Source of the DNA: Roseovarius sp. ZX-A-9
GTDB lineage: Bacteria; Pseudomonadota; Alphaproteobacteria; Rhodobacterales; Rhodobacteraceae
Assembly (NCBI RefSeq): GCF_028369135.1
Contig: NZ_JAPWHW010000004.1
Location: forward strand, 124,001-188,000
Length of the DNA stretch: 64,000 nt
Reading direction: 5' to 3'
Under the pieces are notes generated by a model. It was not told where the DNA came from, did not search any database, and saw nothing but the letters and a program-made list of their open reading frames with translations. How positions within the stretch are numbered: position 1 is the stretch's first letter; the number at the start of each line of letters is the position of its first letter. The position numbers were made by a program, and so were the translations under genes. Below, piece after piece: positions 11,252 through 17,975 of this stretch.

Positions 11252-13663
11252 TTAATGCGCTGTCGCGCCGCTGCCCTTGTTCTCGTTCTTGAGCGCGGCC
11301 TCGGCGGCGGCAGCCTCTTCGGCGGCTTCGTCCCACTCGATCGGTTGGGGCTGTTCGGTCAGCGCCATGCGCAGCACTTCGCTGACATGCGTGACAGGCA
11401 CGATCTTGAGCCCTTCCTTGACGTTGTCAGGGATCTCCACCAGGTCCTTTTCGTTCTCCTGCGGGATGATGACGGTCTTGATCCCGCCCCGCAGTGCCGC
11501 CAGCAGCTTTTCCTTCAGCCCGCCGATGGGCAACGCGTTACCGCGAAGGGTCACTTCGCCGGTCATCGCGATATCCTTGCGCACCGGAATGCCGGTCAGC
11601 ACCGATACGATGGAAGTAACCATCGCCAGCCCTGCCGACGGCCCGTCCTTGGGCGTGGCGCCCTCGGGAACGTGCACGTGGATGTCCCACTTGTCGAACT
11701 TCGGCGGTTTGATGCCAAGGCTGGGCGCGACCGACCGGACGTAGGAAGACGCCGCATCAATCGATTCCTTCATGACATCACCCAGCTTGCCGGTGGTCTT
11801 CATCCGGCCCTTGCCCGGCAGGCGCAGGGCCTCGATGTTCAACAACTCGCCACCGACCGAGGTATAGGCCAGCCCGGTAACAACACCGACCTGATCCTTT
11901 TCCTCAGCCAAGCCGAACTTGTACTTCTTGACTCCAAGGAAATCACTCAGATTTTCCGGCGTCACGTTGATCGTGGTCGCCTCTTTCTTGATGATCCTGG
12001 TCACCGCCTTACGCGCCACCTTGGCAATCTCACGCTCAAGGTTCCGCACGCCCGCTTCACGTGTGTAATAGCGGATCATGTCGGTCAGCGCCTCGTCGGA
12101 CAGCGAGAACTCCTTGGCCTTCAGGCCGTGGTTCTTGATCTGCTTCTGCAACAGGTGCTGCTTGGCGATCTCGCGTTTTTCGTCCTCGGTGTAGCCCGCC
12201 AGCGGAATGATCTCCATCCGGTCCATCAGCGGCCCAGGCATGTTGTAGCTGTTCGAGGTGGTCAGGAACATCACGTTGCTGAGATCATACTCGACCTCAA
12301 GATAGTGATCCACAAAGGTGGAGTTCTGTTCCGGATCAAGCACTTCGAGCATGGCAGAGGCCGGGTCGCCACGGAAATCCTGACCCATCTTGTCGATCTC
12401 GTCGAGCAGGATGAGCGGGTTCGTGGTCTTGGCCTTTTTCAACGCCTGGATGATCTTGCCCGGCATGGACCCGATATAGGTCCGACGGTGGCCGCGGATC
12501 TCGGATTCGTCACGCACACCACCAAGGCTGATGCGAATGAACTCGCGCCCGGTGGCCCGCGCCACGGATTTGCCCAGGCTGGTCTTGCCCACGCCCGGAG
12601 GGCCGACAAGGCACATGATCGGGCCTTTCAGCTTCTTGCTGCGCTGTTGCACGGCCAGGTATTCGACGATCCGTTCCTTGACCTTCTCCAGCCCGTAGTG
12701 ATCGTCGTCCAGAATCTTCTCGGCGCGGCTCAGGTCTTTCTTCACGCGGGATTTGACGCCCCACGGGATCGACAGCATCCAGTCGAGGTAATTGCGCACC
12801 ACCGTGGCCTCGGCGCTCATCGGGCTCATGTTCTTGAGCTTTTTCAGCTCGCCTTCGGCCTTTTCGCGCGCTTCCTTGCTCAGCTTGGTTTCCTTGATGC
12901 GCGCTTCCAGCTCGGCGATCTCGCCTTCGCCTTCCTCGCCATCGCCCAACTCCTTCTGAATGGCCTTCATCTGCTCATTCAGATAGTATTCGCGCTGGGT
13001 GCGCTCCATCTGGGATTTCACGCGCGTCTTGATCTTCTTCTCGACTTGCAGAACGCTCATTTCGCCCTGCATCAGGCCATAGACCTTTTCCAGGCGCTCC
13101 GAGACCGACAGCGTTTCCAGCAATTCCTGCTTCTGTTCGACGTCGATGCCCAGATGCCCCGCGACCAGATCGGCCAGCCGCGCGGGCTCTTCGGAATCCG
13201 ACACGGCGGCCAGCGCCTCTTCGGGGATGTTCTTTTTCACCTTGGCGTAACGCTCGAACTCGTTACCGACGGTGCGCAGCAGCGCCTCGATGGTGGCGGG
13301 GTCGCCGGGCATTTCCGTCAGGTATTCGGCGCGTGCCTCGAAGAACTCTTCGTTGTCGAGATATTCAGAGATGCGCACACGTGCGACGCCTTCGACCAGC
13401 ACCTTTACAGTGCCATCGGGCAGCTTCAGCAGTTGCAGCACATTGGCCAGCACGCCGGCCTTGTAGATGCCCGCAGCGTCAGGATCGTCGACGCTTGGAT
13501 CGATCTGGCTGGACAGCAGAATCTGCTTGTCATCGGCCATCACCTCTTCCAGCGCGCGCACGGATTTGTCGCGCCCTACGAAAAGCGGCACGATCATGTG
13601 CGGAAATACGACGATGTCGCGCAGCGGCAGCACCGGATAAGAGAAATTGAGGGGCTCTTGCAT
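11252..13663 (-). CDS. lon: ATP-dependent Lon protease (endopeptidase La)
   Basis: Cytosolic AAA+ serine protease of 803 residues that degrades misfolded and regulatory proteins; in alphaproteobacteria its targets include the cell-cycle proteins DnaA and CcrM. Domains in order: N-terminal substrate-binding LON domain ([14 protein letters not shown]), coiled-coil middle with [16 protein letters not shown], Walker [10 protein letters not shown], the AAA+ module, and the S16 protease domain with the catalytic-Ser motif KDGPSAG near residue 675 and the partner Lys further on. The C-terminal tail is Ala/Glu-rich. The upstream region carries a good match to a heat-shock sigma-factor promoter. Confidence 0.98.
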
Positions 13664-13738
13664 GCTCTTTCCTTATTTTTGGCAAGCCGGACTGGCCCCG
13701 CAATGCGGCAGCGCCCACCGGCTCCTTCTGGCTGTCTT

Positions 13739-13767
13739 AGGTAGGGGTCCGTTCGGGCCTGTTCAAG
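13739..13767 (-). promoter_or_regulatory. sigma-32 (RpoH)-type promoter for lon
   Basis: On the minus strand CTTGAAC (13767-13761), a 13-bp spacer and CCCCTACCT (13747-13739) match the heat-shock consensus CTTGAA-N13/17-CCCCATNT closely. The predicted start lies about 65-70 bases before the lon ATG. Lon is a heat-shock gene in many proteobacteria, which supports the reading. Confidence 0.6.
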
Positions 13768-14103
13768 TCTGTCGCCCTACCGTCACGACGCGATTCAGAA
13801 TGCCTGCTGCTGCCCCAAGGGGCAAGCAGGTAACTGTAGAAAATGCCACACCCCGAATCGTCACCCGTGCCACATTCTTCGGACAGCGCCCCACGCTTCG
13901 GACGGTGCAAAGCCCGTCGCACATGAGTTTCTGAATGCGCAACAATGACAGCCCCGCCGCACCACAGTTTCCCAACGGGCAATGCTCCCCGACCCCCTGA
14001 CAGCAATTATTTGGGAATGAGTAACTTTCACGTGGCTATCCCCGCGATTAGCAGTTAGACGAGAAGTGTCAAAAATGTGTTTTTTTTGTGTTAGGGGAAT
14101 GCT
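13768..14103. other. intergenic region between lon and the first sorting-tail gene
   Basis: No convincing coding sequence: the open frames here lack codon bias and ribosome sites. The right half carries the leader of the first secreted paralog, including an element shared with the third paralog (13937-13973), a T-run (TTTTTTTT near 14080) and the ribosome site AGGGGA at 14093-14098. Confidence 0.6.
13937..13973 (+). repeat. upstream element shared with the third paralog, copy 1
   Basis: GCGCAACAATG at 13937-13947 and CACAGTTTCCC at 13963-13973 recur in the same order and with the same spacing at 15848-15884. Distance from the GTTT core to the start codon is 137 bases here and 138 there, so the whole leader appears to have been duplicated with the gene. 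Confidence 0.55.
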
Positions 14104-14769
14104 GTGACTTTCGTCAGATCCATGAGGACCACCCTCGCAGCGCTGTTTGTTGCCACCGGCCTGGCCGGAGGCTCTGCCTCGGCCGCGACGGTCGACTATA
14201 CAGGCCCCCAGAACGATGTCGCTGTAAGCGACGTTCTGAATGGTGGCTGGAGCATCATTTACCAAGGACTCATGAGTGACGACGACGTCCCCATCGCGGA
14301 CCTGTTCGCCGGGGCCGGTGACAAGCTCATGCTGGCCACTCGCCGCGTCGGCTCGACCACATTCGACCTGCTGGCGACGATCGGTAGCAACATCTTCATT
14401 CCGCTTCAAACCGCCCCGAATACCTCCGTCGTCGCCAACGGCGCGGGCTGGTACAAGAACGGCCGCTCAATGGGCTTCGCGGGTGAAACCGACACCATTA
14501 ATCAGAGCTCTGCCGACATAAACGGCCAGTCAGAGCGCGACCGGTTGAGCTGGCATACCAATGTCGGAGGGGACCGCAACGACGCCGCCTCGTTCCTCAG
14601 CGGCGGCTGGCGGTCGGGAGACAACACTGATCTGAACTCTTCCGACGAATGGGAGCGCCTTGTTCTGACGGCCAACGTGACGCCGGTTCCCGTGCCGGGC
14701 GCATTACCCCTGCTTCTGGGTGGCCTGGGCGGTCTCGTCGCCCTGCGCCGCCGGAAGAAAGCCGCCTGA
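14104..14769 (+). CDS. secreted protein with VPxPx-CTERM-like sorting tail, paralog 1 of 3
   Basis: A 221-residue protein with a Sec signal peptide (TTLAALFVATGLAGGSASAA) and a C-terminal tripartite tail: VPVPGALPLLLGGLGG, a hydrophobic stretch, then RRRKKAA. This layout matches the VPLPA-CTERM class of exosortase-type sorting signals, in which the tail holds the protein in the membrane until it is cut, usually for surface or exopolysaccharide-associated delivery. The mature region has no cysteine and no motif I recognise; conserved blocks across the three copies are QNDVAV, GGWSIIY, FAGAGD, RRVGSTTFD, WYKNG-SMGFAG and ERDRLSWHT. The start is GTG with AGGGGA 5 bases upstream. No exosortase gene lies in the window. 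Confidence 0.85.
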   Translation: MTFVRSMRTTLAALFVATGLAGGSASAATVDYTGPQNDVAVSDVLNGGWSIIYQGLMSDDDVPIADLFAGAGDKLMLATRRVGSTTFDLLATIGSNIFIPLQTAPNTSVVANGAGWYKNGRSMGFAGETDTINQSSADINGQSERDRLSWHTNVGGDRNDAASFLSGGWRSGDNTDLNSSDEWERLVLTANVTPVPVPGALPLLLGGLGGLVALRRRKKAA

Positions 14770-15035
14770 CGTCCCGCAACAGCGCGCTTAAGCGGGACGG
14801 CGGGCATCCGAATCAGAGCCCCCTCCCGCATCCTCCCCACGCCACACAAGGTTTCCAAATTCGCCCCAATGAGCGCGAGACAATATCGTTGTTTCGCGCA
14901 GGACCGGCGTTGCACCGCTGTTTACGGGGAAATCCACTTTTTTGTGGAAAAATAGAAACTTGCCCGACATGCTCCGGTCGAAATTAACCGCGCGTATATC
15001 ATTTTCGAAATACGCATATCTGGAGAAAGAGTTTC

Positions 15036-15713
15036 GTGAGTTTCATTAAGTACATCAAGACAACCGCAGCCGCGCTCGTCGTGGCGACGGGGCTGACCAG
15101 CGGTGCCGCTTCGGCCGCTACCTACAATCCCTTCGGCGTGCAGAACGACGTCGCCGTGGCTGACGTGGTCAGCGGCGGCTGGAGCGTGATCTATTCCGGT
15201 CGCATGTCACAAAACGCCTCGCTTACTTCGGTATTTGCCGGTGCGGGCGACATGGTCATGCTGGCCGCTCGCCGGGTCGGCTCCAGCACCTTCGACGTGC
15301 TCGCCGCGATCGACAGTGCCATCTTCATTCCGTTGCAAACCAGCTTGAACACCACGATCGACGCCAATGGTGCGCGCTGGTACAAGAACGGCTATTCGAT
15401 GGGCTTTGCCGGGGCCACCGACGCAATCAGCCAAAACACCGCAGACGTCCAAGCTCAGACCGAGCGCGACCGTCTGAGCTGGCACACCAACTGGACTGGC
15501 TACGCCCCGGGTCAGAATGCGTCCGATCCGGCTGCCTGGCTCAGCCCAGGCTGGCGGTCAGGGAACAACACCTACCTGAATAGCGCCGCCAACTGGGAAC
15601 GCGTCGTCCTCACGGCGAACATGACGCCGGTACCCGTGCCAGGCGCCTTGCCCCTGCTTCTGGGTGGCCTGGGTGGTCTCGTCGCCCTGCGCCGCCGGAA
15701 GAAAGCGGCCTGA
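15036..15713 (+). CDS. secreted protein with VPxPx-CTERM-like sorting tail, paralog 2 of 3
   Basis: A 225-residue paralog of the preceding gene, with signal peptide (KTTAAALVVATGLTSGAASAA) and the same last 29 residues, while the mature region differs most from the other two (for example NPFGVQNDVAVADVVSGGW and a longer GYAPGQNASDPAAWLSPGW insertion before the conserved W-RSG-N block). The start is GTG, with GGAG 10 bases upstream. A 266-bp leader separates it from paralog 1 and a terminator follows, so it is likely transcribed independently. It has no cysteine after the signal peptide and no recognisable catalytic motif. Confidence 0.84.
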   Translation: MSFIKYIKTTAAALVVATGLTSGAASAATYNPFGVQNDVAVADVVSGGWSVIYSGRMSQNASLTSVFAGAGDMVMLAARRVGSSTFDVLAAIDSAIFIPLQTSLNTTIDANGARWYKNGYSMGFAGATDAISQNTADVQAQTERDRLSWHTNWTGYAPGQNASDPAAWLSPGWRSGNNTYLNSAANWERVVLTANMTPVPVPGALPLLLGGLGGLVALRRRKKAA

Positions 15714-15743
15714 CAGCCCGCAACTCTACACCCGAGAGGGATG

Positions 15744-15770
15744 AAAGGCGCTCCAACGGGGCGCCTTTTT
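15744..15770 (+). terminator. rho-independent terminator after paralog 2
   Basis: AAAGGCGC...GCGCCTTT stem, extended inward by CC/GG pairs to an AAC loop, followed by a T run. It starts 30 bases after the stop codon. Confidence 0.88.
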
Positions 15771-15847
15771 CATGTCCTGGGTTTGGCGATACCCGATCAG
15801 CCCATTCCTGCCATGCATCTTCCGGCGCGCGCACGACGCTTCCGGCG

Positions 15848-15884
15848 GCGCAACAATGCGCGGCGTACCAGCGCACTGTTTCCC
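15848..15884 (+). repeat. upstream element shared with the first paralog, copy 2
   Basis: GCGCAACAATG at 15848-15858 and CACTGTTTCCC at 15874-15884, the counterpart of 13937-13973, in the 302-bp leader of paralog 3. A weaker core (CGCTGTTTACG at about 14916-14926) lies in the leader of paralog 2. The remainder of the leader holds no gene that I can support. Confidence 0.55.
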
Positions 15885-16015
15885 GGAATCCGCCGCGCTT
15901 CCTACAAGTGAGGTGGAAGTGATTTCTTTCCCCGTGACGCCCCCACGAGGCGTGACTAACTCCCCTGAGTACAGAGACATTTCAACATTCGCTTTTTCGC
16001 ACAGGGGAAATTGCA

Positions 16016-16687
16016 TTGAACTTCGTTAAATCCATGAAGACCACGGTCGCAGCGCTGATCGTTGCCACCGGTCTGGCCGGAGGCTCTGCCTCGGCTGCCA
16101 CCGTCAATTACATCGGCCCCCAGAATGACGTCGCGGTCAGCGACGTCCTGAATGGCGGCTGGAGCGTCATCTACAAGGGGTTTTTCAGTGACACTGACGT
16201 CCCTATCGCGAACCTGTTCGCCGGGGCCGGTGACCAGATCATGCTGGCCTCTCGCCGCGTTGGCTCGTCGACATTCGACCTGCTGGCCACGATCGACAGT
16301 GCCACCTACATCCCGCTGCAAACGGACCGTAGTGCCACGATCGTCGCCAATGGCGCACAATGGTACAAGAACGGCTATTCGATGGGCTTTGCCGGCCTGA
16401 CCGACCGCATTCGACAAAGTTCCGCCGATACAAGTGGCCGTTTCGAGCGCGACCGGATGAGCTGGCACACCGATGTCGGGCTTGCCGGAAGAAGCCCCAA
16501 TAACGAGGCATCCTTCCTCAGCTTTGGGTATCGGTCAGGTGACAACTACCTGAACAGCGCCGCCAACTGGGAACGCGTCGTCCTGACATCGAACATGACG
16601 CCGGTGCCTGTGCCGGGCGCCCTGCCCCTGCTTCTGGGTGGCCTGGGTGGTCTCGTCGCCCTGCGCCGCCGGAAGAAAGCGGCCTGA
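16016..16687 (+). CDS. secreted protein with VPxPx-CTERM-like sorting tail, paralog 3 of 3
   Basis: A 223-residue paralog, closest to paralog 1: the signal peptide region VATGLAGGSASAATV is identical and the mature start NYIGPQNDVAVSDVLNGGWSVIY nearly so. The C-terminal 27 residues equal those of the other two copies. The start is TTG with AGGGG 8 bases upstream, so all three paralogs use weak non-ATG starts. The mature part is predicted beta-rich, with many Gly, Ser, Asn and Asp and no cysteine. It is followed by a strong terminator and is convergent with tgt. Function unknown; surface delivery is inferred from the tail. Confidence 0.85.
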   Translation: MNFVKSMKTTVAALIVATGLAGGSASAATVNYIGPQNDVAVSDVLNGGWSVIYKGFFSDTDVPIANLFAGAGDQIMLASRRVGSSTFDLLATIDSATYIPLQTDRSATIVANGAQWYKNGYSMGFAGLTDRIRQSSADTSGRFERDRMSWHTDVGLAGRSPNNEASFLSFGYRSGDNYLNSAANWERVVLTSNMTPVPVPGALPLLLGGLGGLVALRRRKKAA

Positions 16688-16716
16688 CAGCCAGCAACAC
16701 TACACCCGAAATTGGT

Positions 16717-16745
16717 AAAAGGCGCTCCCGAGGGGGCGCCTTTTT
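16717..16745. terminator. rho-independent terminator after paralog 3
   Basis: AAAAGGCGCTCCC-GAG-GGGGCGCCTTTTT: long G+C stem with a T run, nearly the same design as the terminator after paralog 2. It can also serve the convergent tgt gene. Confidence 0.9.
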
Positions 16746-16778
16746 CATGTCGTCAATTCGGCGTCGCGGGCGGCGGCC

Positions 16779-17975
<1,197 letters not shown>

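Follow-up and report, generated by a model that had tools for sequence, protein, structure and literature searches.

What role could three neighbouring genes for secreted proteins play when the mature part of their products matches no curated family? The question is raised by an array in Roseovarius sp. ZX-A-9 (contig NZ_JAPWHW010000004.1, positions 124,001 to 188,000; this 64,000-nucleotide stretch, numbered from its first letter, is the window throughout), in which three open reading frames (ORFs) encode paralogous proteins with a putative N-terminal signal peptide and a C-terminal exosortase-type tail. We consider it probable that the trio are substrates of the XrtD exosortase encoded in the same genome, and that their common domain serves as an adhesive module at the surface or in the matrix. 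Sequence analysis supports the underlying architecture, namely a putative Sec-type signal peptide judged by eye, a folded domain of about 165 residues in a predicted model, and a VPLPA-CTERM tail together with a matching exosortase.

Sorting tails and the XrtD exosortase

The initial annotation had described three adjacent paralogs with non-ATG starts, cysteine-free mature domains and a shared C-terminal end, and all of these elements were recovered (Table 1). Full-length identity to gene 1 is 68% for gene 2 and 76% for gene 3, and genes 2 and 3 share 70% identity; the final 26 alignment columns hold the same residues in all three, and the cysteine count is zero in each mature domain. By eye, the signal peptides show a basic start, a hydrophobic core and ASA|A. 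Purine-rich Shine-Dalgarno-like stretches (AGGGGAA for gene 1, then GGAGAAAGA and AGGGGAAA) lie directly 5' of the three starts; an in-frame ATG is present at codon 7 of genes 1 and 3, and the signal region of gene 2 has none.

The tail had been read as exosortase-processed, a reading that needs an exosortase in the genome, and the search returned one. All three tails pass the TIGR03370 cut-off (26.9 bits versus 25.35) and a single match to the XrtD model TIGR04152 was obtained in the genome (601.5 bits, cut-off 400; this exosortase type alone was searched), so that a chance resemblance of the tail is ruled out. The same model gave no match in 14 control genomes. The XrtD protein combines the EpsH exosortase domain PF09721 with DUF3485, and its translation contains EACSGLR, NSVRI and HFFEGW, which we take to carry the catalytic Cys, Arg and His. 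In total, 28 VPLPA-CTERM tails score above the cut-off in this genome (the trio and 25 others), versus none in the 14 control genomes. Within 20 kb around XrtD (15 ORFs listed, 10 scanned), there are three glycosyltransferases and two asparagine-synthase-like proteins, as in an exopolysaccharide-type cluster. XrtD itself sits at the edge of the stretch holding the glycosyltransferase genes (G000:C23, L120 684-6282), with the gene of a VPLPA-CTERM protein adjoining it on one side and, on the other, that of an 881-residue protein whose N-terminal domain is of the class-III aminotransferase type. The trio thus resembles the described VPLPA-CTERM/XrtD system (TIGR03370/TIGR04152) in its putative signal peptide (judged by eye), V-P-x-P motif, hydrophobic stretch and basic end, and in having a matching exosortase in its own genome near glycosyltransferase genes; it differs by the motif VPVPG, by the three tandem copies and by a mature domain outside the curated families.

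We propose that each protein would be exported and then retained in the inner membrane by its tail, that XrtD would cut near the VPVPG motif, and that the cut protein would end up on the outer surface or in the matrix. The domain, compact and rich in beta structure, would most likely act at this location as a non-catalytic adhesive module by which exopolysaccharide, or some other component of the surface, is tethered to the cell. Export, tail-dependent processing and delivery by XrtD appear to be the best-supported parts of this proposal, given the curated models and the exosortase in the same genome. The adhesive role is suggested by published work on other exosortase systems (PMC12188702; PMC9850573; PMC1569441). 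According to this work, deletion of a cyanobacterial exosortase weakened adhesion to polysaccharide and biofilm formation (PMC12188702), a PEP-CTERM protein takes part in floc formation and moves soluble polymer to the bound form (PMC9850573), and more than 65% of PEP-CTERM genes are single-gene units with more than 200 bases of non-coding DNA upstream (PMC1569441). The PEP-CTERM/EpsH system of the latter source, with PrsK, PrsR and PrsT, is like the trio in the single-gene-like arrangement with upstream gaps above 200 bases (440, 266 and 302 bases ahead of genes 1, 2 and 3, from the coordinates), in its many different substrates and in its tie to exopolysaccharide genes; the trio differs from it in that no sigma-54 -24/-12 site was found upstream and in its VPLPA-type tail. 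Among the matches listed in the open-licence literature, there was no XrtD mutant study.

Several points weigh against this proposal. The adhesive role would follow from the company kept by the tail and not from the domain. The tail scores barely exceed the TIGR03370 cut-off, and the fifth place of the motif is Gly in the trio and Ala in all 25 other above-cut-off tails. A sigma-54 promoter is known for PEP-CTERM genes, but no sigma-54 site (consensus with at most two mismatches) was found upstream of the trio; the window contains 9 matches to this consensus versus 14.7 expected by chance, the only nearby one being at 13906-13921 on the minus strand. Finally, the descent of the three copies from one local duplication series has moderate tree support only (the trio groups together with support 76/82 and in 80% of bootstrap trees).

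The mature domain and its relatives

The tail itself is ordinary; what makes the locus interesting is the mature domain, which is rare and undescribed and may adopt a TLDc-like fold. As the initial annotation had claimed, this domain falls in no known family: Pfam matched none of the nine mature domains of the trio and its relatives, and NCBIfam gave no credible match to the nine tail-free domains, its sole match being NF012100, a beta-lactamase model (E 0.13 in one of nine), which we treated as noise. The flocculation protein PepA (NF033554) is likewise secreted with an exosortase-type tail and is weakly matched by gene 2 (E 2.2e-5, 24.4 bits) and by the relative L069 (E 8.2e-10, 38.9 bits), but these scores, of which that of gene 2 is the best in the trio, stay far under the 80-bit cut-off, and 0/9 domains match without the tail. 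We therefore ruled out homology to PepA, to NF038124 and to further PEP-CTERM families, the matches being tail-derived and gone with the domain alone; across 249 genomes, NF038124 gave weak matches in 10 genomes, mostly at the model's tail end, and none above the cut-off.

A profile built from the three mature domains, as proposed by the initial annotation, revealed a rare family: 3 of 390 genomes of the order matched, the window's own included, and none of the 11 other same-genus genomes among the 390. Two short peptide patterns, run on one genome per species (84,980 species), brought three further, more distant relatives. With an eight-sequence profile, the window's own genome alone matched among 398 genomes of the phylum, one additional relative (L076) appeared among 349 genomes of the order of the Mitsuaria genome, and no additional relative among 345 genomes of the phylum of the L068 genome. 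These searches were not exhaustive, since 9 or 10 first-look candidates were scored in many genomes and the two peptide patterns are narrow. No match or relative was obtained from the phage families, from a plasmid search with two queries, from two scans of viral contigs or from a viral fold library at E<=0.001. Among solved structures searched by sequence, alignment A1 matched none and alignment A6 gave two matches (E 0.84 and 1.2) that were treated as chance.

The relatives end in different tails. L063 and L064, from other genera of the same family, carry tails above the VPLPA-CTERM cut-off, L067 and L069 above that of Pfam PEP-CTERM, and L076 above that of TIGR02595 (26.5 bits versus 16). 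Judging by these differing tails, the domain is a modular unit whose anchors can be exchanged and which has been joined to different sorting tails in different lineages. L068 (5908-7176) continues after the domain with a linker of Thr/Pro repeats and another C-terminal part, and has no recognised sorting tail. No shared neighbour gene was seen in the flanks of the relatives, which were read in part and not compared systematically.

The family also divides by its cysteines. In the nine-sequence alignment, L067, L068 and L069 have Cys at the same four columns and the other six sequences are Cys-free (an earlier alignment placed the second of these columns one residue off for L067). Two disulfides would produce such an all-or-none distribution, the pairing being our inference. 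In the tree, a single branch (support 98/97) separates the two forms, which argues for a single event in the cysteine change and not several. Two more cysteines in L068 might form a third pair.

The AlphaFold model suggested by the initial annotation was obtained for the gene 3 domain (scores in Table 1), and its predicted shape bears a weak resemblance to the TLDc domain of eukaryotes. A tentative alternative to the adhesive module is that the domain belongs to the TLDc (or intelectin) fold as a divergent relative outside the cell, binding a specific protein or glycan partner. No sequence support was found for kinship with TLDc proteins (PF07534; NCOA7, TBC1D24/Skywalker, mEAK7, Rtc5p): the PF07534 profile matched none of the nine domains at E<=10, and hhalign gave a probability of 0.1. 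The intelectin lectin domain differs in being larger (about 280 aa), again with no sequence support for kinship. By sequence, we found no known cytoplasmic family, a finding that would have spoken against the initial annotation; the weak fold match is TLDc. A scan of 249 genomes from the phylum with PF07534 was likewise empty, as were its controls, so no absence can be concluded from it. To our knowledge, TLDc proteins with structures are eukaryotic and intracellular. The open-licence literature gave no text joining TLD domain, bacteria and PEP-CTERM, and none joining intelectin and TLDc; in a search on TLDc, bacteria and PEP-CTERM, none of the matches listed joins TLDc with PEP-CTERM.

A wider version of this idea, which we regard as rather doubtful, is that the domain forms a secreted bacterial branch of TLDc/intelectin type, displayed by exosortases, swapped among VPLPA, PEP-CTERM and other anchors, and existing in four-Cys and Cys-free forms, with the trio as a local diversified array. 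If true, such a branch would put a TLDc-like fold outside the cell, and a real TLDc-like fold would link a eukaryotic intracellular domain to bacterial surface proteins.

An enzymatic function appears quite improbable. Q9, N85, D111, H124, T125 and R146 (gene 3 domain) are invariant in all nine sequences of alignment A5 and could provide an active site, but no credible match to any enzyme family was obtained and the structure lists were not led by any enzyme fold with good scores (a fold's absence from a list was not read as exclusion). The domain is compact and its predicted model is of good quality; it occurs together with varied sorting tails, and its Cys pattern predicts disulfides.

Possible dosage and diversification of the three copies

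Why three copies? The possibility that they are redundant and serve gene dosage only would fit the identical tails, the separate leaders and the terminators behind two of the three genes. We consider it unlikely, as the mature domains differ at 29-36% of residues with dS of 0.83-1.64, and the 200-base 5' flanks are only about 50% identical when aligned, so that control probably differs among the copies. With dN/dS of 0.17-0.29 at these dS values, the duplications date far back and each of the three copies is under constraint; a recent duplication of the mature parts is ruled out by the same dS. The dosage control hypothesised in the initial annotation thus has little support: since the copies are old and their mature parts have diverged, diversification is as likely as dosage. 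Within the adhesive proposal, the array would probably stem from an old local duplication maintained by purifying selection, and the three copies would supply an extra amount together with slightly different binding faces.

The 3' ends may have had a separate history. At residues shared by genes 2 and 3, codons are identical at 24/28 of the last 28 versus 71/120 elsewhere (one-sided p 0.006); the corresponding values are 22/28 versus 57/114 for genes 1 and 2 (p 0.005) and 22/28 versus 89/132 for genes 1 and 3 (p 0.18). Two cuts were tried in this test (28 and 40 codons) and the p values are uncorrected. Taken with the terminator sequence common to genes 2 and 3, this likeness suggests that gene conversion took place or that the 3' end was copied later; constraint acting on the tail DNA could also account for it. 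Genes 2 and 3 are more similar at their 3' ends (15590-15775 and 16560-16752, stretches that take in the terminators) than over most of their remaining length.

The two clear terminators of the initial annotation were found again as hairpins with U-tracts behind genes 2 and 3, 0/200 shuffles being equal in stability for each; the 3' side of gene 1 has no comparable hairpin (z -1.7) and no U-tract. Neither terminator is among the calls of a generic terminator scan. Two sub-threshold matches to RNA families in 13600-17000 were treated as chance.

Genomic setting of the array

Table 1. Features of the array and its neighbours (window coordinates)
Feature	Coordinates	Strand	Details
Lon protease gene (left neighbour)	11252..13663	-	TIGR00763, NF008053 above cut-off
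Gene 1 (secreted VPLPA-CTERM protein)	14104..14769	+	221 aa, GTG start
Gene 1 mature domain	14185..14679	+	alignments A2, A4, A6
Gene 1 sorting tail VPVPGALPLLLGGLGGLVALRRRKKAA	14686..14766	+	TIGR03370, residues 195-219, 26.9 bits
Gene 2 (secreted VPLPA-CTERM protein)	15036..15713	+	225 aa, GTG start
Gene 2 mature domain	15117..15623	+	alignments
Gene 2 sorting tail	15630..15710	+	TIGR03370, residues 199-223, 26.9 bits
Intrinsic terminator 3' of gene 2	15738..15775	+	-18.4 kcal/mol, z -3.7, U-tract
Gene 3 (secreted VPLPA-CTERM protein)	16016..16687	+	223 aa, TTG start
Gene 3 mature domain	16097..16597	+	AlphaFold model, mean pLDDT 88.8, pTM 0.87
Gene 3 sorting tail	16604..16684	+	TIGR03370, residues 197-221, 26.9 bits
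Intrinsic terminator 3' of gene 3	16714..16752	+	-21.4 kcal/mol, z -4.4, U-tract
tRNA guanosine(34) transglycosylase gene, tgt (right neighbour)	16779..17960	-	TIGR00430 above cut-off

The array lies between lon and tgt. The latter is present in all 12 other same-genus genomes, and none of these 12 tgt flanks yielded a gene 3 relative. In seven of these genomes, the lon start is 259-1076 bases from the tgt end with the array absent between them; in the remaining five, lon is outside the 1,500 bases viewed. The array, missing from these lon-tgt sites, is thus accessory at its site. A recent mobile insertion was ruled out, as the array flanks share no word of at least 9 bases and the G+C content is like that of the surroundings (61.6% for the array versus 63.1% for the window). 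As an accessory three-copy locus in one genome, the trio represents a small, concrete target for learning what XrtD substrates bind. In one same-genus genome, the lon-tgt gap of 1,076 bases (L117 424-1501) holds long open frames.
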